DNA from: Branchiostoma floridae
Lineage: Eukaryota; Chordata; Leptocardii; Amphioxiformes; Branchiostomatidae
DNA length: 64,000 nt
Assembly (NCBI RefSeq): GCF_000003815.2
Contig: NC_049990.1
Span: 7,974,758-8,038,757 of the forward strand
Direction of reading: 5' to 3'
Positions 4,801 through 34,020 of the stretch are shown piece after piece. The notes under the pieces are model-generated. The model was not told where the DNA came from, made no database searches, and saw only the letters and a program-made list of their open reading frames with translations. Within the stretch, counting starts at the first letter, position 1, and the number at the start of each line of letters is the position of its first letter. The translations under genes and the position numbers were made by a program.

Positions 4801-7800
4801 CTGAAAATGTGACAGGTAAATCAGTAAAACAAAAGAAAATTGCTGAAGCATTACTCAAAAATACTGTTTATTTACTGCATACTGGACACTTTTTATAGGT
4901 GACAGGAAGATTTAGTTACAATCATGTAGTTACCAGTACATGAATATTGCTATCTAAAAAAAGCGACTACTTAGATATGCAGTTATCTTTATGGCTCAGT
5001 GACAAAAGAGGCTGAAATAGCAGCAATCAAGATACCCATAACTTACTCTGTACTGCTGTCCACTGTGTGTGGTCACCATGGTAACTGTCTCCTCCTGTTC
5101 TATCCTCATGACAGGGCTGGACAGAACAACTCTGTTTCCAAGCAACGCTGCAATCTTCTCACTCACTTGCATAGAACCACCCACAAATTTGTTCTCCTGT
5201 ATAAAGAACACCAAGATCAATATCGCCAAGATCAATTATTTAAATTTTACAATTTGTTGTTAAATTTCAGAAGATAGGCATGACACAAATTGCTTTACCT
5301 CACATATATTATATATACATCCAATTATAAGTATTTGTGGTGTATGTAGACTGATCCCATGTATCTCCATCAAAATGTGGAAAAACAAGATAAGCAAAGC
5401 AGGTAAAAACATTTCTACTAGGTTAAACAAATTTCAGCTTATGAGCTCATTTCAAGTAAAAAAATGATAATGCAAATATTTGACGGACATGCAGCAAATC
5501 TACCATTGGTCAAACTGCTAGGATCATCATCTATCATTGGTTGAACTGCTGCTTGTGATGGACAGTCTACTATACCTGAGCTCCATTAGTGGTGCTGAGC
5601 ATTCTCCTGAGGCCCTGCCCAGAAGCCAGGTAGGTCAGGAAGAACAGGAACGAGATCTCGTGGGGCTCACAGCAGTAGATGGCAGCCACAATCAGACCTA
5701 CCAGGGTCCTGGCTCGGCTGTGAATAGCGTCAAAGTTGTCACAATGATCTGATCTTTTGAAAGTCTCAAAAATTCCTTCAAACAGTGATCAGAACTTTAT
5801 GGAATTACAGCTAAGAGAAGCTCCTGAGTCATCATCTTTGAGCAACATACAAATTCAAGCAAGTCATTAAACACTTTTTAACAGCACAACAGACAATAAA
5901 AGGAACAGTTAGTTAGTGATGTTAGCTAGTTGGTGAGTGAGTGAGTCAGTGAGTGAGAATATGAGTGAGAATATGAGTGAGAATATGAGTGAGAATATGA
6001 GTGAGAATATGAGTGAGAATATGAGTGAGAATATGAGTGAGTCAGCAAGTAAGCTCAAACATGTCTTCTTGGTAAGATTGTAAAGTAAAGGGTGATCCCC
6101 GAGCTCAGCCAACACAGGAAATATCATATCTAAATAAATAAAATCTTATATAATTTAGTAGAGTTGCTACGCATCAATACCTTGTCCAGCACTCCTTGTC
6201 CATGAACTCCTTGACTGTCATACTGTCCCATTCTTTAGCCCTTGGTGCTTTCCAGGGAGCGTCAGGTGGGACCTTGTATCATTCAAAACCGATTGTTACA
6301 ATGTTGATCATGAGTGGTATACAACAGTTCATGTAGTTATAACCAATGGTTTATTGAGCAAAACTGCTGGAAAGTCCAGAAGTGGCTGCCGCCCAGCCAA
6401 AGCAAAGCCAAAGGAGTGTTTCCTGGACTTAACATCAAGTTAAAAGCAGAACAAGGCAATGAAAACAACTTAAATATAACATCAAAATGTTATGGGCTAT
6501 GGGTTGATACATGTTTCAGCCTAGTCTAAAGTATATCAGTCACAATCAATTTTTGCATCAGAGTTTCGGGGATGATATTCGCTCAAGACAGTTGTTAAGT
6601 AACTTTTAGATATTTCTTTCTTTTCTACTCAACGTTCACCAGGAGATATCTAAGAAAGAAGAGTAATTCCTTATAAACAAATAAACAAACCTGTTTGGAG
6701 AAATCCTCTATTTTCAGCAAGCAGCTGTTTACATCAAAAAGGTCCAGTGGGTTGCTTGACAGGGACGAGGGGTCATCAGGGTTGCTAACAGCTCGCTGTA
6801 CTCCCTAGAAGGATACAAAGTGGAATGGTAATAATTACACATCTTTGTGATAAGGATATCCTTACCACAAGGATGTGTCTTGAGCCCTATCCTACATCTT
6901 ACATCTTCCCCAAGTTTAATACTGAGACCTTTAAGGGTAACGGGGCCATTTAACTCTCACAAACATGCAAATGAGTTACTTCTAATAATAAGACATCTTA
7001 TCACAAAGATGATTGTGGACATCTCACTTCTTCCCCAACTTTATTACTGAGATCTTTACTAAGGGCCTCAATCGAGAGTCCTAATCCAATTGTCTTTATC
7101 TGGAAGACCACCTTTTCTTCGAGTCTGTCTAGTGATTCTAGTCTGTCTGTTCGAAACTTCATAATACTGTGGCTTGCATAACGTCCTTCCCAAAGTATTC
7201 TATGATTCTATGCTGTCCTGATGGACGTTAGCTTTGACTTTAGAGTAATATTGCATTAAAGTTCTAACATTGATAACTGAAATTCAAGTAATTTATTCAT
7301 ATATATGCAAAATAATGTTCATCCAAAGTCAGCTCCACTAAGTTTTTACTTATCCAATTCCAAGCCTGAGACAGAATAGGCCAATGAACTGGAGTCTGAA
7401 AATAGTAATGGGCACCAGGTCAGAGTAATACTCTGTGTATAATAAAATAAATACTGGAATATATAACATACCTTGAAGTAGCTCACTATTCTCTCCTTTT
7501 CATTGACCTTGTAGAGTTTCAAGTCCAGTTCCTTTGCAATGCGCAGGATTCTGTCCTGTGTGGGGCCCACATACGCTCCTCCCAAGTCAACATACCCATA
7601 ACTGGGGTCCTGGAGAAGGAGTAGCGAAAAAAATGAGCTTCATATGAAATAGCTGAATTATCGATACTAGTAGTAGTACTAGTAATAGCATAAAATAGAA
7701 TTTTCAGGGCCCAAGGCAGAGATGATTGACTTCTACCCTTCATTGCCTGTGTGATGTTCATGAACATGAACAGCTGTTTACACTCACCCTGGCAGTAAAG

Positions 7801-8320
7801 GTCCTTCCTCCAACCCTGTCCCTGGCCTCCAGAACTTGAACATCCAATCCAGTCTCATGGAGGAGCTTGGCAGCACACAAACCTGTCATGATTAAGTAAG
7901 AACAATTCTTAATACTGTAAAAGTAATATCAAAGCTCAAGTTGGTGTGAAATTAAAGCTTTAAAAAAATTGAATGCTATTATTATAGTATTAAAAAGGAT
8001 CAAAGTTCAGGCCAATAATATTATGATGAAAATAATTGACACGGTCGCCATGGCGATGATTTTTACAGTCTTGTTACAGTTATAATTATCTAAATTTTAA
8101 TCAACTTACTTTCCGGGTTGTTTAAGGACTCCACTACATAATGATAACGTAATATTTTGTATCATATTATATAGCACTGTCCGTGTTTATGAGTAAGTAA
8201 AACAAGGTCCGCCAAATCATTCAGCTGAGCGCCTCAGACTCCCTTGAAAATAGCGGCCTGCTCACCACTTATCCCTGCTCCGATGACGACGACATCCGTC
8301 TCGATAAGTTCCTTCACCAT
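1844..8320 (-). CDS. MAO: Flavin monoamine oxidase (MAO-like), copy 1, complete, 14 exons
   Basis: Exons in gene order: 8266-8320, 7788-7882, 7472-7609, 6691-6804, 6181-6272, 5576-5717, 5047-5196, 4717-4800, 4365-4440, 3778-3922, 3428-3485, 2980-3077, 2196-2307, 1844-2035. All have GT-AG borders and phases join to 516 residues, close to the 520-527 of vertebrate MAO-A/B. Seen: dinucleotide-binding motif [10 protein letters not shown] (about residues 10-19), EARDRVGGR (37-45), GGAYVGPTQ, lysine 302 in MGSIIK, flavin-attachment motif SGGCY with Cys401 and Tyr402, WGGYMDGA with Tyr439, and a hydrophobic C-terminal tail (about 495-516) that in this family anchors the enzyme in the outer mitochondrial membrane. 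Family role: oxidative deamination of monoamines to aldehyde, ammonia and hydrogen peroxide. The start is the ATG just before the Rossmann motif. Substrate preference cannot be read from the sequence. The two downstream paralogues lack the Cys-Tyr pair. Confidence 0.93.
2320..2398. repeat. Degenerate (GAAT)n tract
   Basis: Tetranucleotide-like GAATGAATG/AATAAATAAATG run in the intron between exons 12 and 13 of MAO copy 1. Similar GAATGAATG tracts sit in intron 6 of copies 2 (19349-19402) and 3 (about 29530-29573). Confidence 0.7.
2743..2964. mobile_element. MITE with long imperfect inverted repeats in MAO copy 1 intron
   Basis: CCGTTGTTTTTTCAAAACAGGGTA near the left side pairs with TACCCTGTTTTGAAAAACAACGG on the right; outer parts GGTGACCTTTAT and ATAAAGGTGAAC also pair approximately. 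About 220 bases overall. Confidence 0.65.
5951..6034. repeat. 12-base tandem repeat, seven copies
   Basis: GAGTGAGAATAT repeated seven times without change, with GAGTGAGT-like text on both sides. In intron 5 of MAO copy 1. Confidence 0.9.
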
Positions 8321-15297: not shown

Positions 15298-18200
15298 TTA
15301 CACCAGGAAAACACACAGTAATGTTACAGCAACCACCAGCACAACAAAGGCAAGCAGGAAAAACAGCAGCTGCGGAATGGATGGGAGGTATTTCTCCCAC
15401 GAAATGGCAGCCACGGGGGTGGAGGGGACGTCAACACTGGGGGGTTCCTCCTGCCAGATCTCGTCTTCGGATATCTTCCCCATGGCATGCAAAATCTGGA
15501 AGTTTGTACAGGAAATACGGTAGTGACAAACAATCATGTCAGAAATAGAAGGCCCTAAAATAGTAATGTTCTTAACTCGACTCAAACTTGTACAAGATTT
15601 AACTTTGTTTTTACACTTAAAATGGCTGGGTTGTGAAGCAAATCTCCATCTCTTTCTTAAGTTTCTGTCTCTGATGTATTCTGCTTAATCTGCAAGTGTC
15701 TGAGTGTACATAAACCTCTGAAAAAATTACAAAAAGTTACTAGAGATGAAAAAGAAGCACAATAAACTTATGCGCAGGTTTGATGTTTACCTCCCTTGCA
15801 GCTCTCTCTCCAGCCTCCACAGCCCCATCCATGTACCCTCCACACTTCAAAGCAGTCTCTGTACCCGCAAAGTACACACAGCCAAAGGGCTTGCCTAGCT
15901 CACTGCAGGGATAGTCAATAATAGACAACAACATTTAAATGGGATGTGCCCAAAGAACAAACTATGGCACAATTAAAAGTGGCCAAGGGTGGTCGCATTG
16001 TGTTCAAAAAGAAAGTCAGAAGGATGATGACAAAACAATCAGATACCTGTTTTGACTTCTATCAAATTTACAAAGTCTTCATCATTAAACATAAGTGAAG
16101 TTATACTTTCTTGCTTTCTTTCAAGCAGGTCTCTCAAAGAGCAGGTTTTATACCCTAACTATGAATTACCATTGCAAAGGAGGTAAAGACAATTTTTGTA
16201 GTCCAATAAAAAACAAAGACAATAGCAAAGCCAAGTTAAGGTTGATGCAATTGAGTGAATTAGCTCCTGCTGTTTGAGCACAGGAGCTACTGTTGTCTCT
16301 TTGGGATGGGAGAGCTGAGTTCCAAGTGGAAAGTTTGATACATAGGCCTCGATATGAAGTTCAAAACCTGCTTTCCTGTTGAAGGTGGGATTGTTTATTT
16401 ATTGTTTATTGATATTTTTGGCCTCCTGGGTAGCCCGATTTTCATTGGGGCCCAGGTACACATACAAGAAAATAAAAACATATTACAGAAAACATAAATT
16501 GATATATACAACCAGGAACTTTTGTTTCCTACAAAACAGTAAAATTGAAAAAATAGTGAAGAAATTTACAGTACCTGCCAAAGCTTGTCAGCACACCTGG
16601 TCCTAAGTTGGCCCCAGGTCCTCCCCCAGAAAAGGTGTCTGCCATCCAGTTATGTTCCACATAGTGAACAGGCTGAAGGGAAATTAAGACATGGTTGCAC
16701 AAATTACTACATTATGTATAAATAATGTTTCCCTTCACAGAAGGAAACACCATTAATAATGATAATGATCATTGTTTTTACTCTGTTTCTCCCTCCTTTT
16801 CCTCTCTTCTTCAAACAAATTAGAGCAATGACCTGGACCAGATGGGTGCGACCATGGTAACTGGTAAATTATTACATAATGTAGCAAGTGGCAGGACAGA
16901 GTTGGTGGGGCTGGTAACCATGTGTTTCAGTAAGAATAAACAGAGCAGTGGTTTGTTAATTGTTAGGCTTTTCAGTTGATTCATTTAACCACTAGATTGA
17001 TTTGGTTTTCAGTAACCCTTATGTCAGATTTAATACAAATTCCCAGTACGAAAAGTGAAATTCCCATCATTGTGACAGTAGTAACTCCAGTGTATTAAAC
17101 AATTATGTACATCCAGTTTACCACAACTCACATGAAGGAACTCTGGACACTGGAAAACTTCAGCATAGTGTTCACACACTGTCTGCTTCCTGAAAATACA
17201 ACAGCAGACCTTTTTATATAATTTAGAGCTATTATCACTTGAGATGTATCATGTATGAACCTTAGAAAAGGTAAGACTTCCACCTCCTCAACTTACAGTA
17301 TTAACCTGCATGACAGAGGCACCTGGCACTCAAGGTTAAGACATCCTCTGTGACATCTATGTGCTAGCATGTTCTTTATTATGATATCAAAAGTACTAAT
17401 TTCTTCTTTGCCATGTTTTTTCTTGCATGTCACAAAATTTCTCAGGAATGCACAAAAAGTTACAACAAATTACTATATAGTTCATTACTATAATTACAAT
17501 GATCAGACCTTTCCTCTACAGACATGTCACAGAATTTCTGGGCCTGTGTGGATGTAATGAACCCCACTAGCGCAGGGAAGGAGCCGTTGGGTTTAGTGTC
17601 GTCCATGCAGGCAACAACAGGCCCTGTGTCGGACATTGCTGTACCACTGAAACCTGTGAGACACCAAAGATTATCTTGAAACATTTTACTTTAAGTTGCA
17701 TTTTTTTGTGTTGACCCCTTCGTTGAGTTTTCAAGACACCAGGAATATGTGCCTACAATGAAAATACTAGTAGTTTAATACTGTATTACAGAAATGTCTC
17801 GACCTCAAACGAAAACCTCCTTTCCCCTTCCCCACTGCAAAAATAAATGAATTTACAGTATACCGCTAGTGTCATCTGTATGATTTAAAATAATAGTGCA
17901 ATTGTGCCACCATCCAATGTAAATATTCTTTGTTTAACACCTATAAAATTCTCCATATCATGTAAGATTGACACATACCTTGCATTTTGTCTGTATATAT
18001 TATAAATAATGTGACAATTTACCCATGGTAGCTAAGCTAATGAATAAGAGAAAGTTATTGACAATACAGGGAAGTGAAAACTGCTGACCTAAGTTGTCTT
18101 TCCAGAATGCTGTTTCATAGTACGTCATTGTTTTGATGACTGATCCCATGGGCATCCAATGTATCATCTGGTATTACAACAAGAAAGTATTTTAACTAAA

Positions 18201-21200
18201 TTGCATGGTTCGGATATTATGATGATGCCTGAGTTGAAAAAGGAAATGTCGAGTTCAAAACGGTCTTTCATTCATTCAACCTTTCACACAGCCCTCAATG
18301 TATGAGGGAGCTTCAGGTGTTAACCTCAGGTATCAAAATTCTGCACGTCAAAGAACCAAACACTTATCTAGACGACTAGGGGTGATCTGCTGTTGTCCAG
18401 GCTAAATGCAAGTCATAGCAAAACTGCGTTGTACTATTTGATAGCTTAAAACCATCAAGTTTCACCTCAGTTCAGGATGACAACGGAAAATGAATTAAAA
18501 ACTCACCTGTATTTTCAAGCCTGGGAGTGGGGGTTCAAACAGAATCCGATGGAGAAGAGTAGGTGGTACGGCACTTATAACATACTTTGCCTGTAAAATT
18601 AAAAGGAAAGATCCAGTGTGTATCTACATAATTCCCCCAGGTCACATATATCTGCTACCTTGAAATATGACTCTTAAGAGGTCTCCACGCAATGCAATAT
18701 CCCCTAGTACAATGCACTTCTGCATACTATAAGACTACAAAATTTATAAATCATGCTCACATAGCATTGAAAACAAAGCTACTGTCCATGCATTGTTCTT
18801 CTTGATGGGTTACACATGCTACGTTATAACATAGTATAGCAAACATGATTCCTAAGGGCAAAAGACAACCCATAACCTACCCTGTACTGTTGCCCACTGT
18901 GTGTGGTCACCATGGTAACTGCCTCCTGCTGTTCTATCCTCATGACAGGGCTGGACAGAACAACTCTGTTGCCAAGCAACGCTGCAATCTTCTCACTCAC
19001 TTGCATAGAGCCACCCACAAATTTGTTCTCCTGTGTCAAGGACATAACACAAAAATATTCTCTCTGGACAACAAACACAAAGTACACACCCATGTCTACA
19101 CATCATGTCACAGCATAGACTGTACAGTATATGCATGGTGACAGCATGCAAAGCTCTGGAAATCTCTAAGTTATTCCAAGCACAGAAGGTGACTCCTAGT
19201 GAAACATATGCCTATAAATTTGGACAAATAAGTTGTTGAAATATGCAAATTTTGACCAATCTGATACAATGTAGATAACTGTTTTGTAACATGACATCAA
19301 AGCTTGTGTTTCTTGTGACAGGGCATACATGTTGTATATAGCTAAAAAAATGAATGAATGAATGAATGAATGAAAGAATGAATTAATTGATTAATGAATG
19401 AAAGACTCATCATCATCACAAAATCTTAATGCAATTATGCCAATTATACCTGTGCTTCATTTATCGCATTTCCAAATCCACCCGAAGATGCCACACCAGC
19501 CAGGAGAACAGGAATGATAACTCTTCTGGCTCACAGCAGGCCAAAGTAGCCACAAGCAAACCCAACAGCTTCTTTGTTACGCTGAGTATCAGAGGAATAC
19601 ATGTTAGCAATTTCTACTTCATAAGACAGAAGAAATCTGGAGAAGATGCACAATTGTGTTAACAAACATTCAAATAAACAAACATGATTTGAGCTTAATG
19701 CATATTGACCTTTAACATTATCTTTGATATCAGTGTGCCAGTTGAAGGACCCTACCTTGTCCAGCACTCCTTGTCCATGAACTCCTTGACTGTCATACTG
19801 TCCCATTCTTTAGCCCTTGGTGCCTTCCAAGGAGTATCAGGTGGGACCTAATGAATGTATAAAGGCACATGATCAGTGTTATGAACTAAGCACTGCTAGT
19901 ACAGAATCTTATCACCGTTTAGGATTTCTACGAAGAATCAGAAAGTTCTGCCAGATTCTAAACTGACATATATAAGAGTGTCAGTCAGGCAAGATTTTGG
20001 TTGAACAGATCATGTCAGTTACATGTACGCATCACCTTGGGCTCAAAGCTGACAAGTAAACACAAACTATACTTGTTTGTGATTTTTTAATAAAATCATC
20101 TCAAAATTAAACAAGCAAAATGAGTTCACTAAGTCAATTCAGTGTCCAAACCTGTTTGCTGAACTCTCCGACCTTCCATAGCAAGTTGTTCATGTCCAGA
20201 AGAGCCAACGGATTCCTTGTCAGAAGGGAAGGGTCATCAGAGCTGCCTGATCGGTGTACTCCCTGTATGGATACAAATTTGGATGTAACTTAACAAACTG
20301 TTACAATATACTATCAAACCCATCCTGTCTATAGATATAGCCAACACTAGTATTGCATTGTCTCTTTTTATAGTAACCTTAATCACTGACCATTGTCATA
20401 TGCACTACTCTCCAAACTAGTCAAAAATCTAAACTTCATTGATATGAAAGTGATGAAAATATATAATTCATGAGCTTGAAATGAGACGTTTTACAGGAAA
20501 AAACAACAACATGGACTCCCAAACAATAAGTGGGGACTGAAACAAATCAAAGTTGGAGACAGTCCAGACAGACAGTGCCTTAGACTTTAGAGTCACTGAT
20601 CATGATGACCAGTCGTTTGATGAGAGCTGGATCAGACAAGATTACCTCCATGTAGCTCACTGTTTTCCCCTCGGCATTGACCTTGTAGAGTTTCAGGTCC
20701 AGTTCCTTTGCAACCCGCAGGATTCTGTCCTGTCCTGCCCCCACATACGCACCTCCCAAGTCGGCATACCCAGAACTGGGATGCTGGAGAGGAAGAAGAA
20801 AATACTGTCATGATCATCGGGAATTCCAAAATCTTCCTGAAATACTGTAAATCTTACAATATCCAATTATTTGTTTTTTATTAGCCTGGGTACCATCCAA
20901 TTTCTACCGGGGCTCCGATAGCGAGCCGGAGCCCCAGTAGAAATCGGATGAAGCCCAGGCTAGGTTTTTATTGCAGCATGAATATTTCTTTTTGTACTGT
21001 TTTAGACAGCAAACTTAAAACACTTTAAAAACTTCGAGCTACCATGAAATTAAAATCCTTCTGTCTTGGGAGACAATTTTGGAGTTCGCTCCATGAATTT
21101 ACTTACAGTATGAAATACAACAGTCACCAGGTCCAAGAAAAACTTACATAATTAAAAGCACTAAAACTTACCGACACCGTGTAAGTCCTTCCTCCAACCC

Positions 21201-21576
21201 TGTCCTGGGCCTCCAGAACTTGAACATCCAATCCAGTCTCATGGAGGAGCTTGGCAGCACATAACCCTGAACATACCAGTACATTCCATTTTAATTTTCC
21301 AACATATCAAACTGGCAAGTGGACATTAGTTTTAATAAATTCAAATGCTTGGCCTTCTTAAACTGCTATCAAAGAGGTAACTCTCAACAGGGCCTTTTAT
21401 ACATAGCCGTCGGCAAGTTGGGTAAGGCTGGGGAACTCCCAAACCAATAATCAACTACAACTGGTTAATAAATAAACAAACAAAGAGTACTAGTAATCAC
21501 CACTTATTCCAGCTCCTACGACCACCACATCTGTATCTATCACCTCCTTATTCCCTCCAGTTTCAAAACTGGCCAT
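15298..21576 (-). CDS. MAO-like copy 2, 14 exons, frameshifted in exon 6 (possible pseudogene)
   Basis: Exons in gene order: 21501-21576, 21172-21266, 20646-20783, 20152-20262, 19756-19847, 19450-19581, 18881-19030, 18507-18590, 18089-18167, 17509-17653, 17132-17189, 16575-16672, 15791-15902, 15298-15495. All splice sites are intact. Exon 6 is 132 bases; copy 3 has 133 there. One base is missing near 19505, so the frame reaches TAA within that exon; restoring one base would give about 522 residues. Unlike copy 1, the flavin loop reads SGGGPGANL: the FAD-linking Cys and the next Tyr are Gly and Pro. Other departures from MAO signatures: EAQDRVGG instead of [12 protein letters not shown] instead of [12 protein letters not shown] instead of MIQRMPMG, and KCGGYM instead of KWxGYM. 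The lysine in MGSVIK and the membrane tail remain. It may be a decaying gene, or the deletion may be an assembly error or allele. Confidence 0.85.
20882..20962. mobile_element. Foldback MITE, TAGCCTG family, copy b
   Basis: 81 bases that form an almost complete hairpin: TAGCCTGGG ... CCCAGGCTA ends and CCGGGGCTCCGATAGCGAGC with GGAGCCCCAG inside. Flanks GTTTTTTAT (20873-20881) and GGTTTTTAT (20963-20971) look like a 9-base target duplication with one mismatch. It sits in intron 2 of MAO copy 2. Confidence 0.75.
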
Positions 21577-21800
21577 AGTGAGGCAGATACCACCTCAGAA
21601 TTTCGCAAGTCCTGATGATTTTGACTCAGAGCGCGCGAGTCAGAGAAAGTCCAGGGAAAGGAATTAGAAAGTGTCGACCTGTAGGGCGAAAATGACGTCA
21701 CGCCCACCTGGGTGAACTTTGACCTAAAAGTTTCAATTACCCACAGTTCTCCGCGCGGGACAGAAGTTTGGCGGTTACTACACTAAGTACTTTGCGTTCC
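21577..21800 (-). promoter_or_regulatory. Promoter of MAO copy 2
   Basis: Sequence upstream of the copy 2 ATG aligns closely with that upstream of copy 3. It shares a perfect palindromic CRE (TGACGTCA, 21693-21700), a CACCTGGGTG palindrome, a DR1 half-site pair (minus strand AGGTCAAAGTTCA, 21713-21725) and CTCCGCGCGGGACAG. Conservation between duplicated promoters fits functional sites but could simply reflect recent duplication. Transcription factor identity (CREB/ATF; HNF4 or RXR type) comes from motif knowledge only. Confidence 0.55.
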
Positions 21801-22963
21801 GGGCAAAAAAGGTGGCTATCATCTAAGACGTCGACTGGAAATACACAAAAATTATTCATATTTCACTCCACTATACCGTAGATTTTCGTCAATTTTCTTC
21901 TCCTGTCATATCTTCAAAGGGATTCATCTCCGTTGTTCCTGGGCCTTGACCTGAAATTTGGCACATGGGGTAAAGTGGGCGCATTTCTCTCTCTCTCTCC
22001 CTCTTTCTCTCTGTTAACGGTGCACATCCCAGTTCTTCCGCGACCGTGCGCGACAAAAAAAGGTACTGCGCGACAAAAAAGTGACGAAAGGCTTCCGAGG
22101 GTCTATGTTTGATTTGGCATTTCTCATTGCCTGCCTACCTGCCCAAGTGCATCATTATTTACTGCGAAATGACATTAAATGCTAACATGGCTGATAAAGC
22201 GTAGGAAATGGTGTGTTTTGGGTGCAAATTGTGTTTCCGGGCCCGACTCTCATTTCTGGATATTCACGCGCCTTCAATGTTAACAGGCCCGTGACCTAGA
22301 TTGACCTCTGAAGCGCTGTGTTAAGCCAAGTGCCGCGCGCCGTGGATGATTTAAAAAACTGTAGTACTAGAATTGTCTTTATAATTGGCTGGATTACTCG
22401 CTAGATTTTCCTCTTTCCGGCAGTATCAGTCGTGCTTGCCGGAAAAATCGTCTTCATCTGTTTTATCTAATGCGAAAATGCCTGATTTTGTGCATCATTT
22501 TTTACATGAAAAGAATGTTTTTTCCATATAATTTTTCAAAATCAGAGAAGTTGAAGGATCGGAACTCAGTTGGTCTTGTAGCTGAAGGAATATCCTCTCA
22601 CCCCATATACAGTTATTTTGCTTCAGGATAATGTGTAATAATGTTACCATCAAGATATGGATGTTCTCTAAATTACATCTATTACATTACTGAAACAGCT
22701 ACGGCGGAAAAACACAATATAAAAGTGCATCAACTTGCAACTTCGTACAAGCAGATGACATGCCATACTACATACAAATGGAGGAAATGGATTCATCTGC
22801 GAACAGGCATCCCATCTTAAACTGCATTGCCGTGAGACTTTCATATTCTCCAAGCAGAGGTTCGGTCACAGGGATTAGTAGTGACCAGGATTTTTACTGG
22901 CTAGCTACCCTCATGAGGATTAATATTGTGTCTGAAGGACTTTTGTCTGAACTGTAAGACAAT

Positions 22964-23071
22964 TAGCCTGTGTTTACACAAGCTCTCGCTGGCTGGAGTT
23001 AATGACCCCCTCCCCTATGGCAGGCGGCAATTGTAGGCCCAGCCGCTAGGGGCGCGATTTTAGTCAGGCTA
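22964..23071. mobile_element. MITE, TAGCCTG family, copy c
   Basis: 108 bases from TAGCCTGTG to AGTCAGGCTA, flanked by a perfect 9-base repeat TAAGACAAT (22955-22963 and 23072-23080). Intergenic, just before the 3' end of MAO copy 3. Confidence 0.8.
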
Positions 23072-23143
23072 TAAGACAATAGACCATTGTAAAATTAGAG
23101 GCGTGTAAAACAAGAGCAAATGAGCTGGTAGATACAGTTGAAG

Positions 23144-23149
23144 TTTATT
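23144..23149 (-). terminator. Probable poly(A) signal of MAO copy 3
   Basis: AATAAA on the minus strand, about 1.4 kb past the copy 3 stop codon, in the same context as 14076-14081 (both followed on the plus strand by ACATTTCCATGCAAAACAC). Position and conservation suggest the end of the 3' UTR. Confidence 0.45.
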
Positions 23150-23401
23150 GGACATTTCCATGCAAAACACAAACATTTTACAGGATGACCCTGAATATTT
23201 GAATGCAAAAACATAGGACCATCTTTATCAAATTCTGAAATAATAGGAACAGAAAATAATACATTGTATTCACAGCTTTTCCCTTAATTAAACTACGGAC
23301 TCAACAACTCAAACACAAAACAGACTAAAGCTGAGAAATGAGCATACGGAGACCATTATCATCATCATATACTGTCCAACTGAGTATATTGAAACCAATT
23401 A

Positions 23402-23848
23402 AGGTCACACCAATTTAATTTGTTGCTTCTAAAAAAATTTAGTCCCAAGAAAAATAATGTAGGTTTTGCTATTGCAGACCTGCAAAAAACCCATTCCAGG
23501 GGCACATACTGCTGATAAACCAATCATAGATTGAGCTTCTTTGTAGTCACATGATAGAAAACAACCAATAAGCTTCTTGCATTTCTTCAAAACGCATAAT
23601 TTCAGTACATGTATAAAAACAATTTCCTTTATTCAGAACAGTGGTATCAAATCAAAGGAAGAGATTCATTGGATAAATTATGCCATGAAAAGCAGAAAAC
23701 TTGACTAACCTTGTTTTTTGTGTTATATAAGCCTCATATGTTCACCCCAGACTTTTTGCAAAATTTTATTTATTTATTTTTTTCGACCGACCGCCCCAAT
23801 ATTTCTCTGAAAAAATCCAAGAAGCAACAAATTAAATTGGTGTGGCCT
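23402..23848. mobile_element. Inverted-repeat insertion in the copy 3 3' flank
   Basis: The left end contains CACACCAATTTAATTTGTTG and the right end CAACAAATTAAATTGGTGTG, exact complements about 445 bases apart. The copy 2 flank lacks this block: its AATTAATCGTGTCATCACCTT matches the sequences on either side. It behaves as a non-autonomous terminal-inverted-repeat element; ends and target duplication were not resolved exactly. Confidence 0.6.
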
Positions 23849-24569
23849 AATCATGTCATTACCTTAAGAAGATAATAGAAAAAGTCCAGACATGTATGCC
23901 TGGATAGTAATGCAACAGACTATGCTTTTACACCTGTGTTACACCAGGTCCTGTTTTACTTGTTAAGTGAAAATTTCATTTCTGTTGTATATACACATAT
24001 GTGGCTATCATACTAACTTGTGCTAATTATAAGTATATAAAATATGATGGAATGTTAAGATTTAAAAATCTGGCATTTCAAGATTGTAACATGACATTTT
24101 CTAGCATCACATCTGATGATGATGCATAGAACAATATATATTACATGCATAAAAAATTAACATAGTTTTACACAAGCAAACTCTTTGTTTAGGGTCAGCT
24201 AGGACCTTATCTTAAGTTTTTCTGTAAGTTTCAGTGCACATACCTGATGAGTTCTATAAAATATGCATAGCTATCATCTACTAGTATACTCTATATACTA
24301 ACATTTAATTTTGTGAGGCAACAGATTGCAATGGTCACCTCAAATCTCTAGGAAATGCATTCTCTTTCTAACCTATTTTCAGACCAATACACATAGGGGA
24401 GTAATTTATTTGCTTGCTGCTCCAGTAAGCAGGGTACATTATTGCCCTACCCAAGATTGAACCAGGTTACCAACTTATTAAAACCAGGAGCTCAACTGTG
24501 AGGCTGCTACCAGTTGAGATGCCGGTTACTAAGTATACATCCCGATATCCCGGAGTAGCCTGTAATTTA

Positions 24570-27500
24570 TTACACCAGGGAAACACACAGTAAAGTTACA
24601 GCAACCACCAGCACAACAAAGGCCAGGAGGAAAAACAGCAGCTGCGGAACAGATGGAAGGTATTTCTCCCACGAAACGGCAGCCACGGGGGTGGGCGGGG
24701 CGTCAATACTGTGGGGTTCCTCCTGCCAGATCTCGTCTTCGGATATCTTCCCCATGGCATGCAAAATCTGGAAGTTGGTCGGGAATAAATGACAAGAAAT
24801 CATGTCAGAAATAGATGCACTCAAAAATACTGTAACAGTTCTACTCGACTCAAACTTTGTATTTACACTTAGAATGTGTGAGTTGTGCAGCAAATCTCTA
24901 TCATAACTCTTTCTTAAGTCTCTGTGTCCAAGGTTTTTTGCTTAATCTGCACGTGTCTATACATAAACCTGAAAAAAAAATAACCAAAAAGTTGAGACAA
25001 AAAAGAGGCACAATAAACTTATCAGCAAGTTTCATTTACCTCTCTTGCCGCTCTCTCTCCAGCTTCTACAGCCCCATCCATGTACCCATTCCACTTCACA
25101 GCAGTCTCTGAACCAGCAAAGTACACACAGCCAAAGGGCTTGCCTAGCTCACTGCAGGGACAGTAAATAACAGACAGCAACTTACATTTGAATTGGATAT
25201 GTCCAAAGAACAAGCTATGGTGTATTTAAAGGTGACCAAGGGTGGTCGTATTTTGATGACAGCACAATCAGATACTTACTTGTTTTGACTTCTATCAAAT
25301 TTGTAAAGTCTTCTTCAAATGACAAAAAGTGAAGCTGTACTTTCTTGTATACGCTTTTCTCACCTCCGATTGGTTGGTAGTTTCTAAGCAGGGCAGGGCC
25401 CTTGTGTAAGATAACCAATCAGCATCCGAGGTCTCAGTTTACACTGACCAGATAAGCCAATCAGCACTGAGGATCTCAGGCTTTCCTTCAGAATTGTTTC
25501 AACCAGGAACTTTTGTTTTCTACAAAAAAATTGTTAGATTTACAATATGTACCTGCCAAAGCTTGTCAGCACACCTGGTCCTAAGTTTGCCCCAGGTCCT
25601 CCTCCAGAAAAGGTGTCCGCCATCCAGTTATGTTCCACATAGTGCACAGGCTGAAGGCAAAAGACATGGTTGCACAAATTACCATCAATAATGTTTCCCT
25701 TCACAGGACGAAACACCAAAATGATTGTTTTTACTTCTTTTTCTCTCTTCTTCCTCTTCTTCAAGCAAATAAGGTCAATGACCTAAACCAGATAGCTGTG
25801 ACCATAGCAAGCACCCTGTGGTGTTCAATTACATAATGTAGCAAGTGGCAGGACAGAGCTGGTGGGGCTGGTAACCAATGTATTTCAGTAAGAATAAACA
25901 GAGCAGTGGTTTGTTAAGTTATCTAACCACTAGATTGCTTTGCTTTTTAGTAATCCTTTTGTCAGATTTAAAACAATTGACATTCCCTGGTAGAAAAAAA
26001 CTGAAATTCCCATCACAGTAGTAAGTACAGTGGATATCAGGGCTCCAGCCAGCGTCCGTTTTTCCGTCAATTGACAGGAATTTGCTGCGTGTGATGGAAA
26101 TTTTTTAAAACCAATCCGTCAACCTTGACGGACAAAAATGCTTGGTGGAAGCTACAGGTAGCTTGGGGACGCTGTCCATGGTCGGAAAGCCACACACTGT
26201 TTGTTTTGCTATTGTTATGATTGTTGACTTAGTGTGTCGGCGCCCTTTCACATTAAAAACCCGTTTTTCAAGGTCTCAGTTCCGTCTTTCTAACTTAATT
26301 TTCGCGGTTTTCACGACAATGGGAATTGGCTGATGGAAAAAAATTTTGAGCTGGCTAGAGCCCTGGTGGATATATAAAATATGTTTTATAGTTTACCACA
26401 ACTCACATGAAGGAACTCTGGACACTGGAAAACTTTAGCATAGTGTTCACACACTGCCTGCTTCCTGAAAATACAGTTGAACTTATAGACCTATAGAACT
26501 AATCACTTGAGATTATGTATTATGTATGAACCTAAATAAAGCTTTCTTCTCCTCAACTTGCAGTGTTAACCTGCAGGATAGAGGCATCAGGCAGATTGCT
26601 ATTAAGGTAGCCTCAATGACACCTGTGTGCTTGCATATCTTATATTAGAACATCTAAGAGTACATAATTCTTCTTTGCCATGTTTTCTCTTGCCACAAAA
26701 TTTCTCAGGAGCACACAAAAAAGACAGTACTGTACTACAATAAATTTAAGTTTTCTGTATTATCTCATTACTATAAGATTGATCAGACCTTTGCTCTTCA
26801 GTCATGTCACAGACTTTTCTGGCCTGTGTTGAAGTAATGAACCCCACAAGTGCAGGAAAGGAGCCATCTGGTTTAGTGTCATCTATGCAGGCAACAACAG
26901 GCCCTGTGTCGGACATTGCTGTACCACAGAAACCTGTGAGACACCAAAGATTATGCTGTCACTGTGCTTTTTTGTGTTGACCTCTTCATACTCATAGTAC
27001 TGCGTTTTCATGTCACCAGAAATATGATTGTGCCTACAATGGAAATACTAGCAGTTTAACATCCATTGGCATAATACCGGTCGGTTTACTGCAATTTCTC
27101 AAGCAATGCTAATTTGGCAAATGATCAACGCATCATTTTCTCCAGTTACATGTTGCTGTTACAGCTTACCTTTGCCACTTCTTCTGTGTAAATTATTTTG
27201 TCTCTCTGGTCCTGCTAAAAAAATAATATCGTAATTGGAACACACCGCGGAATTGTACGGAGAACGGGCGCGTGGTTGGAAGGGGGTGCACTATACCGGC
27301 CGAACGAAACACGGCACAATTAACTGCCGCTATGTACCTTTATACATCCTCTGTTGTTCCTTTCTTTCCTGTTAGTAGTTGCACAAAACAAAAATCTGCA
27401 TGAGCATACAAAAAGTCATGAGAAAATGGGCGTATACTGACAAGAATTTTCATTTAATTTTGGTCCGTCACAACCGCTATGACGTAAAACTTTACTGCTG

Positions 27501-30500
27501 GCCGTAGCATTAAAAATGGCGGGAAAATGGCGGCGTACGTTCAATTTGACCCATTCAGCCGTAGATCCGGGCGATAATGCAACGGTTCCTCACACTTTTA
27601 CACGAGTTGTAGGTCACCAAAAGAAATTCAAGATTGCTGTTGAATCATGCTCGTCTTGTGCCGTGAGCACATTTGATTATTATCTACAAATCTGGCGATG
27701 AACGTGACAGTGTGTTTGTCCCACGACGAGCTCGCCTGCCCCGAAAATGACCTGAAAACTTTTGGCCTTGTTGTCTTCGAATGGATTGTTATCGATGCTT
27801 TGTAAATTATGTATTGGACACCTAGATGTCTGAAGTGTGCATACCTCAGAAATAACTATTGTTGCATGTGTAGATCTCTTTATAATAAGTTCCACTATTT
27901 TTAATCGACCGGTATAAGGCTTATGACCGGTATTATGCCAATGCATGTTTAATACAATCAGAACAAATACGATTGATTAGAGAAATGTTTCTACCTCAAA
28001 CTAAAAGCAGCTTGAAAACCTTCTTTCCCCTTCCTCTGCAAAAAAAATGAATTTATGGTATACTGCTAATGTCATCTTTGAATGATAGTGCAATAATTAT
28101 TTTGCCACCATCTAATGCAACTTTAATTCCTTGTTTAACATCTGTAGAATTCTCTATATCCTATAAGATTGACACATACACTGCATTTTGTCTGTGAATA
28201 TGATAATAAGACATATAAATCTTTCCCATAGCTTGAATAAGAGAAAGTTATTGACAAATGGAAATGAAAACTGCTGACCTCTCTCCTTCCAGAATGCTGT
28301 TTCGTAGTATGTCATTGTTTTGATGACTGATCCCATGGGCATCCTCTGTATCATCTGGTATTATGGCAAGAAAAAGTATTTCAACTTAATTGCCTGGTTT
28401 GAAACGATATCATGATGATGCCTGATTTAAAAAAAAAGGCAAAGTCAAAAACAAAGACTTTCCTTCAACCTTTCACGCAGCTCAATGTCATATTACTCAG
28501 CATCAGACGGTCTTTTAAGGCATAAAACCTTTGTATGTTAAAGAACCCAACACTTATCAAGAAAAGTAGAGATGACCCGGTGTGCTCCACTAGGCTAGAT
28601 GCAAGTCATAGCAAAACTGTATTGCATTGTACTATATATATTAGCTTCAAACCATCACACTTCATCTCAGCTCATAATGACAAGGGAAGAGAATTAAAAA
28701 CTCACCTGTATTTTCAAGTCTGGGAGTGGGGGTTCAAATAGAATCTGGTGGAGAAGTGTAGGTGGTATGGCACTTATAACATAGTTTGCCTGTAAAAGGA
28801 AAGATATACATAATGTGTAAAAACATAAATCCCCCGCTTACATATATCCACTAACTTGAAATATGACTCTATGCAAGAGATCTCCACGCAATGCAATATC
28901 CCCCTGCCAGTACAATGGACTTAAGAAAAATCATCACATTGAAAAGAAAGCTGTTGGCCATGCATAAACAATGTTTTTTCTGATGCTATGTTATAACATG
29001 ATATAGCAAACATGATTTCTAAGTGCAAAATCCAAGACAACCCCATAACCTACTCTGTACAGCTGTCCACTGTGTGTGGTCACCATGGTAACTGCCTCCT
29101 CCTGTTCTATCCTCATGACAGGGCTGGACAGAACAACTCTGTTGCCAAGCAACGCTGCAATCTTCTCACTCACTTGCATAGAGCCACCCACAAATTTGGT
29201 CTCCTGTATAAACATTACACAAATAATATTCTCTCTGCAAATACTGGACAAAAAACACATCCATGAAGGTATCAAGGCACAGTATAAACTGTGCACTATA
29301 TGGTGACACTGACAGCATGCAAAGCTTTGGAGATCCCTCATTTATTCCAAGACAACAGCACAGATGGTAACTCCTGCAGTTATAGTGAAACTTATTAAAC
29401 ATTTGGACAAAGAAGTTGTGACCCAATAAGTTGCTGAAATATGCAAATTATGACCAATCTGATACAACGTTGATAACTGTTGTAATGGGACATCAAAGCT
29501 AGTGTTTCTTAGGATGAGGCACACATAAAATGAATGAAGGAATGATAGAGTGAGTGAGTGAGTGAATGAATGACTCATTATCATCACAAAATCTCAACAC
29601 ATTTATACAAATAAGTGAGTTGTACCTGTGCTACATTTGTCGCATTTCTGAATCCACCTGAAGATGCCATACCAGCCAGGAAAAACAGAAATGATATCTC
29701 TTCCGGCTCACAGCAGTATATAGTGGTCACAATAACACCCAACAGCTTCTTTGATATGCTGAATATCAGAGGAATACATGTTTGAATACATAATTTCCAT
29801 TTTATAGACAAAATGAGATCTAGAGAAGATGCATGATAATGTGGTTTGAGCTAAATGTTTGGCTACCAAGCATCTATTAATTTCGTAATAAGGGGCTCTA
29901 ATGGTAATCTCTGCATAGGCTATAACGTCCTTGGCATAGGTGACTGTTAAAATATAATTGTTAATGTTTCTATCTCTCTACATGCTAATCTGACCTTCCT
30001 TCCACAATGCCATGGAAAATTCAATCAACTGAAATCCTAAATAACTTTGAAAAAAATTTTAAGATTACTTTTCATTCTTCTTAGGTTTAGGATTTTCTAC
30101 TAAGATACAATACAAAGACATACATATATTGGTACAGTCATACAGTAGTGCTGAAAATCAAGTGACATATATTATTAAAAATGTGACAATACAAACAAAT
30201 AAAGGGGCAATCTTGAGATTGTTTCAAACAATCTTGAGATTTTCCAGAACATCTTCACATCTTGTGGAAAAATCTTTAAACGTTTCACTTGGCATGACAA
30301 CGCCCACTGACTGAGGGTCGTTATGATCCATACAGTGACATGGAAGTTTTTCCACAAAAATATCATCTTTGTAAGAAAGCTTTAAAACGTTACAAGCATC
30401 TGTTTAAAGTTCAATGTGTAGTCCAAAATTATTCTGGATGGTGTTTTTCAGTTGTAGAAGACATAAGATAAAGATTGATGTCGATGTGCTGGTAGAAGGA

Positions 30501-33500
30501 CCCTACCTTGTCCAGCACTCCTTGTCCATGAACTCCTTGACTGTCATACTGTCCCATTCTTTAGCCCTTGGTGCCTTCCAGGGAGCTTCAGGTGGGACCT
30601 TAGGAATGTGTAAGGCACGTGTAAGCTGCGGTGGTTCGTATTACGTATATCTAGAAGGAATTTCAGAACTCTAAGAAGGATTTCTACCAAGAATCAGCAA
30701 TTCTGCCAGACTAAATTCTACACTGACATATATAAAAGTGTCAATCACAATAAATGGTCATCTGAGACTTTGGTAAGAACAGATCACGTCAGTTACAATG
30801 GCTTTGTACATACTCTCCGACTCAGGCAGAGTCTGACGTGTAAAGGACAAACTATATTTGTTAGTGATTTTTTCTTTATATAATCGTCTTGAAATAAAAC
30901 AAGCAAAAATAGTTCAAAAAGCCAATCCAGTGTCTGAACCTGTTTGCTGAACTCTTCAATCCGCCACAGCCAGTTGTTCATGTCCAGAAGAGCCAGCGGA
31001 TTCTTTGTCAGAAGGGAAGGGTCATCAGAGTTGGCTGATCGGTGTACTCCCTGTGTGGATACAAAAGATGTAACTAGAATACAAGATATCAAACCCAACC
31101 TGTACTCAATTAGTATCTTTTTGTAATTATCTTAATCACTGTCCATTGTCCATTGTATGACTCTCAAAACTTAGCCCTTGGGCTCAAACTGGCAAATAAA
31201 CTTTCTCTAACTTTCTGTTATTGAGTTGTCCAGATCATGTATTGTCAGAGGATGAATATTATTCACTCTTAAGTACTGTCTATCGTGAAAAGTTACACGT
31301 AACAATGATCTAGATTTGCGGTGACCTTTCCTGTGTGCAATACACTTAGTTTCCATTTTTGTATTACAACAGTTACTGTACTAAAGAGTTGTTTCAATCT
31401 GACAAATGCAAAACACTGCAAGAACTTCCTTCCCACTGTAAATAAAAAATTAAGTTGCCATGAAAATAAATGAATTTGAATTAAATTAACAGTTACTCAG
31501 TAGTACATCCATGGCAATTAGTATTTGATAATTCCCATTTAACTGTGCAATTATTTTTCCTCAATGTATAATTTATATTCTGAACATTAATTAGTGTCCG
31601 GAAAACCAGAGGTTGATGAAAGCTGGATCAGACAACANNNNNNNNNNNNNNNNNNNNNNNNNNNNNNNNNNNNNNNNNNNNNNNNNNNNNNNNNNNNNNN
31701 NNNNNNNNNNNNNNNNNNNNNNNNNNNNNNNNNNNNNNNNNNNNNNNNNNNNNNNNNNNNNNNNNNNNNNNNNNNNNNNNNNNNNNNNNNNNNNNNNNNN
31801 NNNNNNNNNNNNNNNNNNNNNNNNNNNNNNNNNNNNNNNNNNNNNNNNNNNNNNNNNNNNNNNNNNNNNNNNNNNNNNNNNNNNNNNNNNNNNNNNNNNN
31901 NNNNNNNNNNNNNNNNNNNNNNNNNNNNNNNNNNNNNNNNNNNNNNNNNNNNNNNNNNNNNNNNNNNNNNNNNNNNNNNNNNNNNNNNNNNNNNNNNNNN
32001 NNNNNNNNNNNNNNNNNNNNNNNNNNNNNNNNNNNNNNNNNNNNNNNNNNNNNNNNNNNNNNNNNNNNNNNNNNNNNNNNNNNNNNNNNNNNNNNNNNNN
32101 NNNNNNNNNNNNNNNNNNNNNNNNNNNNNNNNNNNNNNNNNNNNNNNNNNNNNNNNNNNNNNNNNNNNNNNNNNNNNNNNNNNNNNNNNNNNNNNNNNNN
32201 NNNNNNNNNNNNNNNNNNNNNNNNNNNNNNNNNNNNNNNNNNNNNNNNNNNNNNNNNNNAACTCGAGCTCCATGAAATTAAATCCCTATAGAAATAATAG
32301 CCTGATTAAATCTCGCTAATAGCAGCCCGCCCAACATCCGCCGGCCACGCGGGGAGGGGCTAGTTACAGCACCGGACAGCAGAGTTTGTGTTACAGTCAG
32401 ACTATAGAAATAAATGCTGTCATGACAATTCCTTCTGTCTCGGAAGACAATTTTGTAGGTTGCATCATGAATTTGCAGTAATAACAACAGTGGTCCAAGA
32501 AAAGGTTAAGCTGGTCATTGGCTTGCTAGTCTGTGTAACACAAACTCTGCTGTCCGGGGGCTGTAACTTGCCCCTCCCCGCAGAGTTTGTGCTCCACTAA
32601 TCTCATGAGCTGGGGGAACTGTTGTAGAAAATAGGTGGCCGGCGGATGTTGGGCGGGCTGCTATAAGCGAGATTTAATCAGGGTAATGGCTTGCTATTGA
32701 ATTATCAAAAGCACTTTAATTTTAAAAACTTACCGACACCGTGTTTGTCCTTCCTCCAACCCTGTCCCGGGCCTCCAGAACTTGAACTTCCAAACCAGTC
32801 TCATGGAGGAGCTTGGCAGCACACAAACCTGAGCAGACATACCACTTAATAATCAATTACAAGAGATCAAATTTACAAGTGGGCATTTGTTATAACATTT
32901 AACAAATGTGTGACATTCCTGCATATATATTTATTATCATATAGCCTACCCACACTGACCCATTTAAGAGTAGAGTAGAGTAGAGTTTCCGGTTGGGTAT
33001 GAGCGACAAATTCCTTTATAAAACATACATCTTTTATTCAGTACATAAATTTGAACAGTGAATTTGAACAACATAAAACTTGTACGTGAAATGTATTTCT
33101 GTTCCAAGGCTTGAAATAAGAACAAAGTTGATTCATTATGCTACAAACTGTTGCACGCTCCGTATTTCTCCACTCGCCCATTCTCCAGTTTGTCGAGTTT
33201 GTTCGTATCAGGCGCTAAATCTCTGCCGGCTTTCCTGAGGCATTCCAGGATCCCTGTGCTTCACAGCTCTTGAGAATCTCGTTCACTACGAACTCAGACA
33301 CGTCTTCTCCGAAGAAAGGTAGCATTTTGGTCCTCCAGCGCCATGACCGCTACTCAATGGCGGACCGTGGTGTTTTTGTCGTCTGAACTTGAATGGGCGG
33401 GGGTACAAGTAATTTTATTTTCCATTTGCAGTTTAAATTGGACATGACTTGAAATAGATTTTATTGTCTTAAATATTATAGGTAATTCAATGTTGTTTTA

Positions 33501-34020
33501 AGACGGCAAATGTTTTCTTTGAACAAAGAAACACGCACTACTGATGTTAATAGAGGGAGCCATCCCCCCTGCCATGCCTGTACTTATTCCCCTATCTTGG
33601 CAGATGGACAATTCCTAGATATCTCATTCTGATTGGCCAGCGTCCTGTTTGTCTGTCCTTCTGATTGGTTCAAACTTTCAAAAGTCATTATTGCACGTGT
33701 GTATTAATAAAAAATTTAATTCGGCGTCATAACCAGCATGAAATGGGGCCTTCTGATTGGCCCACGTCCCCTGGCTATATGATAATATCAATAATCAAAT
33801 GGGCCAGCAGGGCCCTCTGTGATAGCCATAGGCAATCATTAGCTGGGTAGGCTGCGCACCAGGCCAGGGAACGGCCAAACCAATGAGTAACCCATTAACT
33901 ACATGTAAATAAGGTTAATAAATAAACAAACAAAGAGTAATCACCACTTATTCCAGCTCCTATGACCACCACATCTGTATCTACCACTTCCCTCTTCCCT
34001 CCAGTTTCAAAACTGGTCAT
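24570..34020 (-). CDS. MAO-like copy 3, 13 of 14 exons visible, exon 3 in assembly gap
   Basis: Exons in gene order: 33945-34020, 32734-32828, exon 3 hidden in the N run, 30940-31050, 30507-30598, 29626-29758, 29054-29203, 28706-28789, 28279-28354, 26789-26933, 26407-26464, 25553-25650, 25040-25151, 24570-24767. If exon 3 has the 138 bases of its paralogues the product is about 521 residues. Intron sequence like that bordering exon 3 of copy 2 stops at 31637, right at the gap. Intact motifs: [34 protein letters not shown] and the C-terminal hydrophobic tail. The flavin loop is SGGGPGANL, so the FAD-linking Cys is Gly (25597-25599) and the following Tyr is Pro, as in copy 2. No stop or frameshift is seen, so this paralogue looks functional at coding level, perhaps with non-covalent FAD. 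Its introns carry several transposon insertions that copy 2 lacks. Confidence 0.9.
26038..26365. mobile_element. hAT-type MITE in intron of MAO copy 3
   Basis: 328 bases with terminal inverted repeats CAGGGCTCCAGCCAGC and GCTGGCTAGAGCCCTG (15 of 16 pair), flanked by a perfect 8-base duplication GTGGATAT (26030-26037 and 26366-26373). CAGGG ends with 8-base target duplications are typical of hAT elements. Absent from the same intron of copy 2. Confidence 0.85.
27064..27945. mobile_element. Terminal-inverted-repeat element, about 880 bases, in MAO copy 3 intron
   Basis: The left end CATTGGCATAATACCGGTC is the exact complement of the right end GACCGGTATTATGCCAATG. Copy 2 lacks it at the matching site. 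Both flanks contain GTTTAA, so a TTAA-type target is possible but not proven. The interior includes a CpG-bearing stretch with TGACGTAA and two AAAATGGCGG motifs (27511-27530), resembling a promoter with YY1-type sites, followed by an ORF of about 60 codons (27516-27701) of unknown nature. Confidence 0.75.
31638..32259. other. Assembly gap (N run)
   Basis: 622 N. By comparison with copy 2, exon 3 of MAO copy 3 starts within about 10 bases of the left edge of this gap. Open frames reported across the gap are artefacts. Confidence 1.
32298..32404 (+). mobile_element. MITE, TAGCCTG family, copy d
   Basis: 107 bases, TAGCCTGATTAAATC to CAGACTA, flanked by a perfect 9-base repeat TAGAAATAA (32289-32297 and 32405-32413). 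Intron 2 of MAO copy 2 (about 21040-21180) shows the same surroundings without the insertion. Confidence 0.85.
32527..32685 (-). mobile_element. MITE, TAGCCTG family, copy e (inverted)
   Basis: Reverse-oriented relative of copy d, TAGTCTGTGTAAC to GATTTAATCAGGGTA, with about 50 extra internal bases. Flanks share TGGCTTGC (32519-32526 and 32687-32694). Together with copy d it makes an inverted pair that could form a large hairpin in the copy 3 pre-mRNA. Confidence 0.75.
33141..33344 (-). pseudogene. Small mRNA-like gene relic nested in intron 1 of MAO copy 3
   Basis: The minus strand reads [20 protein letters not shown] then, after a one-base shift, [20 protein letters not shown] and ends ...YGACNSL stop at 33141. 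A 3' UTR-like stretch follows with AATAAA at 33033-33038. An earlier ATG at 33342-33344 is in another frame. Copy 2 has only 234 bases in the matching intron, so this arrived later. The parent protein was not recognised. No poly(A) tail is visible; the region is bracketed by AGCCTACCCA (32943) and its complement (33844), so it may ride in a transposon. Confidence 0.4.

Follow-up and report, generated by a model that had tools for sequence, protein, structure and literature searches.

Gly-Pro in place of the flavin cysteine and its neighbouring tyrosine in two of three tandem monoamine oxidase genes of Branchiostoma floridae

Background

Monoamine oxidases (MAO) bind flavin adenine dinucleotide (FAD) via an 8-alpha-thioether bond to a cysteine (PMC4945635 and PMC6152983, both in excerpt), and the pentapeptide SGGCY of carp MAO has been described as one that may bind FAD (excerpt of PMC6152983). 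Fungal MAO is active with non-covalent FAD, a mode of binding also ascribed to bacterial MAOs (PMC8538783, in excerpt). An amine oxidase of the mud crab, in which several MAO-B site residues are replaced, has been placed by its authors nearer SMO (PMC6152983, same excerpt). Here we describe a tandem array of three MAO genes, all on the minus strand, in a 64,000-nucleotide stretch of contig 12 of the amphioxus Branchiostoma floridae (the window, to which all coordinates refer unless a contig is named), in which copy 1 carries SGGCY, as do the MAO-A and MAO-B entries that we compared, and copies 2 and 3 carry SGGGP at the same place.

To our knowledge the reason for covalent FAD in MAO is not settled, and engineered cysteine mutants provide an indirect test of the bond's role. 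Animal MAOs devoid of the cysteine, encoded beside a cysteine-bearing sister copy, would offer matched pairs for examining that role in stability, redox potential and mitochondrial import. No Cys-less animal MAO was found among the open-access literature matches listed, a silence that is weak evidence of novelty.

Results

The models of all three genes were built exon by exon:

1844..8320, minus strand: copy 1, an intact MAO gene with SGGCY; 14 exons bounded by AG/GT that splice into a single open frame of 516 amino acids
15298..21576, minus strand: copy 2, an MAO gene with SGGGP; 14 exons, with a one-base deletion in exon 6
24570..34020, minus strand: copy 3, an MAO gene with SGGGP; open in each of its 13 readable exons (of 14), with exon 3 in an assembly gap
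2980..3077, minus strand: exon 12 of copy 1, 98 nt, Cys codon at 3024-3026
16575..16672, minus strand: exon 12 of copy 2, 98 nt, Gly codon at 16619-16621
25553..25650, minus strand: exon 12 of copy 3, 98 nt, Gly codon at 25597-25599

The best solved relative of copies 1 and 3 is MAO-B (3zyx; E=4.7e-175 and 7.4e-145, respectively), and both match the flavin amine oxidase family PF01593 (copy 1, E=1e-77; exons 4-14 of copy 3, E=2.8e-49). The readable exons of copy 3 have phases identical to those of copies 1 and 2, and a hydrophobic C-terminal tail, judged by eye, ends all three translations.

The flavin site is encoded in a homologous exon with the same AG/GT boundaries in each gene, and both the gene models and a motif scan confirm the difference that a sequence-only reading had reported there, namely SGGCY in copy 1 and SGGGP in copies 2 and 3. 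Alignment to MAO-B also supports its assignment of the two altered residues to the flavin cysteine and the adjacent tyrosine of the aromatic cage: Cys397 is replaced by Gly and Tyr398 by Pro. The number 397 for the flavin cysteine follows this alignment. Six of the nine nucleotides differ between the Cys-Tyr-Val codons of copy 1 and the Gly-Pro-Gly codons of the other two genes, and copies 2 and 3 differ from each other within exon 12 at four synonymous and no nonsynonymous positions, a pattern whose probability would be about 0.003 under random placement of the changes. The Gly-Pro-Gly replacement is evidently more than a product of chance. The Gly-Pro-Gly codons contain AGGACCTGG, which is also found in the LGPG codons of copy 1, 18 nt downstream; a short template switch from the LGPG codons, a scenario that occurred to us post hoc, could have produced the change in one step.

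A six-frame scan of the window with SGGC, SGGGP and a looser pattern returned the three MAO exons and one stray SGGC on the plus strand, at 32553, that lacks MAO context. An alternative exon 12 encoding SGGC, the finding by which the sequence-only reading could have been overturned, is absent from the coding strand of the window, 622 gap bases of which are not scannable. Because copies 2 and 3 form a clade with support of 100/98 in all three trees described below, and because AGGACCTGGGG occurs in the window at the copy 2 and copy 3 sites only, a single origin of the cysteine loss, before the two copies split, is supported, as had been proposed.

Elsewhere in the active site, copies 2 and 3 keep the equivalents of Glu34, Gln206, Lys296, Phe343, Trp388 and Tyr435, together with the Rossmann motif. 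Retention of that motif and of the active-site lysine, which is K in all three copies, had been claimed and agrees with the MAO-B alignment; the further claim that the other cage tyrosine remains holds for Tyr435 and fails for Tyr188, whose equivalent is Gly in both copies. The aromatic cage has been counted as two residues (PMC13155685) and, within a single source, as two, three (with Tyr188) or four (with Tyr60) (PMC4945635, in excerpt); in copies 2 and 3 position 398 is Pro, 435 is Tyr and 188 is Gly, and position 60, readable in copy 2, is Tyr there. The substrate-gate loop that contains Ile198-Ile199 in MAO-B is three residues shorter in both, Ile199 being one of four gate residues (excerpt of PMC6152983). 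The loss of Cys and Tyr398 thus stands, and the extent of the active-site change had been understated. MAO-B mutants at Tyr398 or Tyr435 are still active (PMC4945635, in excerpt). Copy 1 already differs from MAO-B at gate positions (Phe168 to Ile, Leu171 to Ala, Ile199 to Leu and Tyr326 to Ala), and the substrate cavity would therefore appear to have been shifting in the whole lineage. A peptide bond of cis configuration between Cys397 and Tyr398 would suit a proline; the literature searched offers no support for such a bond, and it carries no weight here.

A search of the whole genome (431 contigs, 513 Mb) with copy 1 led to six multi-exon matches outside the window, on contigs C12, C5 and C13 (among loci L039-L047), designated M12a-c, M5a, M5b and M13 and modelled with a purpose-written spliced aligner. 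The count that follows covers these and the three window genes, and leaves out other PF01593 loci on C4, C5, C6, C7, C9, C10, C13 (at 7.0 Mb) and C17. Eight of the nine MAO-type loci have an exon 12, none having been found by spliced modelling in M5a (C5:11.46 Mb), and the flavin-site residue is Cys in four of the eight (copy 1, M12a, M12b and M13) and Gly in the other four (copy 2, copy 3, M12c and M5b). M12a and M12b both have SGGCY; M13 retains the Cys but with an adjoining Pro (NGGCP); the divergent M5b, on C5, has IGGGF and a Ser at the Tyr435 equivalent; and M12c has TGGGY:

C12, first ATG at 12205060 and modelled to 12213753, plus strand: M12c, MAO-B-like, with TGGGY; spliced alignment

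All modelled exons of M12c are open and bounded by GT/AG sites, the start of the second exon being approximate, and no stop occurs within 86 codons from the start of the last exon. It is the top outside locus by MAO-B score (1315), although M12b is higher in identity (57.8 versus 56.1%), and it keeps the Lys296 and Tyr435 equivalents along with other cage and gate features considered below. In M12b (L041) we also observed two tandem versions of the exon 10 equivalent, at C12:6381136-6381232 and 6381657-6381753, which are possibly mutually exclusive exons.

Phylogenetic trees were built without columns 396-400, and without M5a, the bacterial L059, whose frame was not parsed, and L057 and L058, near-copies of L056. 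M5b, on a long branch, was included in the first tree and left out of two later ones, and all other animals were represented by human MAO only, with MAO-A added in the last tree, which had 10 bacterial rows. Copies 1-3 form a clade supported by 100/99 in two trees and 100/100 in the third, and M12a-c group with MAO-B or MAO-A/B at 94/99 (with M5b), 95/99 and 100/99 across the three. Copies 1-3, human MAO-A/B and M12a-c are separated from the bacterial rows at 100/99 in the last tree, copies 1-3 being sister to MAO-A/B plus M12. The minimum number of changes between Cys and non-Cys over the nine animal rows of the first tree is three, one of which depends on M5b, whose placement is unsure, and the loss in M12c is, on the inferred phylogeny, separate from that in copies 2 and 3.

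Two alternative arrangements were rejected by p-AU: one shared Cys loss in copies 2 and 3 and M12c (4e-54), and an amphioxus-only clade that joins copies 1-3 to M12a-c without human MAO (0.025, or 0.007 with MAO-A added). Since the amphioxus-only clade is rejected, copies 1-3 seem to belong to an older lineage of MAO alongside MAO-A/B, in a comparison where human proteins alone represent other animals.

Outside animals we considered a small sample of 13 bacterial relatives, chosen by two peptide patterns, of which 12 are readable at the site (L059 is out). The position of the cysteine is occupied by Cys in three, Gly in four, Ala in four and Ser in one, so that nine of 12 lack it, and the following residue is Tyr in nine, Pro in two and His in one. 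Absence of Cys from the flavin site is evidently ordinary across the family at large. The loss in copies 2 and 3 is real, and it is less singular than the sequence-only reading had implied, because M12c, M5b and these nine bacterial relatives lack the residue too. The Gly-Pro of copies 2 and 3 has parallels in Ser-Pro and Ala-Pro, one in each of two of these bacterial proteins, and in the Cys-Pro of M13, suggesting that the flavin site can accommodate a neighbouring Pro. Among deposited putrescine oxidases, Ala (RGAY) is found in 3rha and 2yg3/2yg4, and Cys (RGCY) in 2yg5, 2yg6 and 2yg7; we take Ala to be the natural residue of putrescine oxidase and its FAD to be non-covalent.

Several further features of the locus were recorded. 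Copy 1 diverges from copies 2 and 3 at synonymous sites to a degree that changes abruptly from one exon to the next (exons 5, 7, 11 and 13; for example, 5047-5196, 18881-19030 and 29054-29203): copies 1 and 3 differ at 2 of 33.5 synonymous sites in exon 7 and at 13.5 of 20.5 in exon 8 (Fisher 3e-6), and the 60 nt of intron on each side of the low-divergence exons align poorly. These jumps would reflect either exon-limited gene conversion or synonymous constraint. Related blocks lie upstream of the MAO copies, at 9689-9929, 21579-21930 and 34023-34223; copies 1 and 2 can be aligned there along 245 nt (copy 2 positions 21705-21930) and copies 2 and 3 along 210 nt (copy 2 positions 21579-21780), with an identity of about 77% in each case. 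In copy 1 some 1.4 kb, including a palindrome-rich stretch, separate the block from the ATG; seven copies of the perfect palindrome CTGGATATCCAG occur in this stretch, at 8470-9140. The array is adjoined at 35367-39280, on the plus strand, by a gene with long coding exons that may encode an axonemal dynein heavy chain, a resemblance seen by eye.

Discussion

Starting from what was observed directly (residues, gene models, a shared ancestry for copies 2 and 3, the selection acting on these two together, and another, separate cysteine loss in the same genome), we give roughly even chances to the reading that copies 2 and 3 encode proteins of the MAO fold that have a remodelled active site and bind FAD non-covalently, copy 2 being now broken while copy 3 may work. 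Copies 1-3 would have arisen by tandem duplication of an animal MAO gene and, in the common ancestor of copies 2 and 3, Cys-Tyr-Val would have given way to Gly-Pro-Gly before the split, the same lineage also giving up its counterpart of Tyr188 and shortening the gate loop by three residues. Kept along with the fold of MAO would be the active-site lysine, the Rossmann cradle for FAD and a putative membrane anchor in the C-terminal tail, and FAD would be held by the remaining contacts without the 8-alpha-S-cysteinyl bond. Such Cys-less proteins, if functional, would hold the flavin loosely, and with a less aromatic active site they might act on amines other than the classical aromatic monoamines, or act weakly. 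Copy 2 would have been broken later, by the deletion in exon 6, and copy 3 is perhaps still functional.

The integrity of the two genes bears on this proposal at the following positions:

19450..19581, minus strand: exon 6 of copy 2, 132 nt; frameshift and in-exon stop, without the gate-loop residues
29626..29758, minus strand: exon 6 of copy 3, 133 nt, 9 nt shorter than in copy 1; Tyr188 equivalent is Gly
31638..32259: assembly gap of 622 N, covering exon 3 of copy 3

Copies 2 and 3 could instead be decaying tandem duplicates in which the losses of Cys, Tyr188 and the gate-loop residues reflect relaxed selection, copy 2 being a pseudogene and copy 3 on its way to becoming one. We regard this as possible, if rather doubtful, and a number of observations weigh for it and against a retained function. 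Exon 6 of copy 2 is one base short relative to copy 3, and the resulting frameshift runs into a stop before the exon ends. In copy 3, the whole of exon 3, which in copies 1 and 2 encodes 46 residues of the FAD domain (the DLGGAYVG exon), sits inside the gap, and copy 3 therefore cannot be called intact; that it has no disabling mutation, as the sequence-only reading stated, is not established. The missing exon did not turn up elsewhere: among the best candidates scored in the genome, strong similarity to the corresponding part of copy 1 was confined to the M12 genes and to copies 1 and 2 themselves. The several changed cage and gate positions could mean that activity has been lost.

Selection was assessed with our own three-branch codon model script on 465 codons, the copy 1 branch including the stem and the copy 2 codons past the deletion being read in the original frame; three sets were tested, comprising all exons, all but exons 5 and 7, and the divergent exons only. 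With all exons, the ratio of nonsynonymous to synonymous rates (omega, dN/dS) is 0.23 on the copy 1 branch, 0.38 on that of copy 2 and 0.64 on that of copy 3. Consistent with decay, copy 3 alone is indistinguishable from neutrality in every set (p=0.38, 0.29 and 0.65, in the order given); the constraint on copy 2 alone (omega below 1) weakens from p=0.0013 to 0.015 and 0.054; and the joint omega of copies 2 and 3 exceeds that of the copy 1 branch (0.456 versus 0.23, p=0.0077). When copies 2 and 3 are compared with each other, exon 6 proves near neutral (dN 0.175, dS 0.21), and exon 1 has five nonsynonymous changes to one synonymous.

Against decay, the same joint omega is below 1 with all exons (p=1.2e-4) and stays so without exons 5 and 7 (0.479, p=6e-4) and in the divergent exons (0.469, p=0.004). 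GT/AG sites are intact at every intron seen in both copies, none of the four changes in exon 12 is nonsynonymous, and copy 2 has a single disabling change across its 14 modelled exons, beyond which it is open in the original frame. The omega results and the exon 12 pattern therefore indicate that copies 2 and 3 were constrained as a whole and relaxed relative to copy 1. The dN/dS measurement to which the sequence-only reading had pointed for copy 3 gives a value below 1 for the pair and one indistinguishable from 1 for copy 3 by itself. Its suggestion of a retained MAO-like protein with non-covalent flavin is a real possibility, because copies 2 and 3 are jointly under purifying selection, though the intactness of copy 3 was overstated.

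It is unlikely that copies 2 and 3 have been kept as non-catalytic MAO-fold proteins, serving in amine sensing, membrane anchoring or as dimer partners of copy 1. The altered cage and gate, combined with the retention of many fold-level residues and of the hydrophobic C-terminal tail, would fit such a role, but Lys296, Trp388, Gln206, Tyr435 and the Rossmann residues, for which a non-enzyme would have no need, are kept as well. Finally, an artefact, whether two haplotypes of one locus assembled in tandem or miscalled codons, might be suspected from the assembly gap in this region and the closeness of copies 2 and 3 (86.9% protein identity) but is very improbable given their coding dS of 0.17, introns that are 82-92% identical in aligned positions (11 of 13 compared) and differ greatly in length (for example, 234 versus 1116 nt), identical altered codons in both copies, and Gly at the site in two other genes.

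Returning to the reading of copies 2 and 3 as retained non-covalent proteins, we tentatively extend it, at somewhat less than even chances, to the genome as a whole: the covalent flavin bond may have been abandoned at least three times (in copies 2 and 3, in M12c and in M5b), always in favour of Gly, with at least M12c, and perhaps copy 3, being working non-covalent MAOs. If this is true, the covalent bond would be dispensable in a natural animal MAO, and Gly-Pro at positions 397-398 would provide the flavin site with a stable alternative floor. Of greater value than copies 2 and 3 alone is the genome-wide pattern, in which M12c is the most clear-cut candidate for a natural MAO devoid of the cysteine. 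Counts of chordate MAO genes may include copies that are not the usual MAO enzymes.

Comparison with known systems

Vertebrate MAO-A and MAO-B resemble copy 3 in the PF01593 domain, the Rossmann motif, Lys296, Trp388, Tyr435 and the hydrophobic C-terminal tail, its identity being 51.2% to MAO-B and 49.5% to MAO-A in the rows compared; copies 2 and 3 differ from them in lacking Cys397, Tyr398 and Tyr188 and in a gate loop shorter by three residues. The fungal MAO-N type matches the state proposed for copies 2 and 3, that of an active enzyme with non-covalent FAD (PMC8538783, in excerpt), but is far more distant in sequence (best E=1.1e-23 for MAO N against copy 3). The putrescine oxidases (3rha, 2yg3) are likewise MAO-family oxidases with a residue other than Cys at the flavin site, but they are bacterial, have Ala rather than Gly and keep the adjoining Tyr. 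Two relatives from Nocardioidaceae (L050 and L051), known from sequence alone, share with copies 2 and 3 a small residue followed by Pro (GSP and GAP), though they are bacterial, with 38-41% identity to copy 1 over their best segment. A parallel to the replacement itself lies within the same genome: M12c has exchanged Cys for Gly at the same position in an otherwise MAO-B-like protein, but by a loss that is separate on the trees and, unlike copies 2 and 3, with an unshortened gate loop and with counterparts of both Tyr398 and Tyr188, which makes it the cleaner natural test object.

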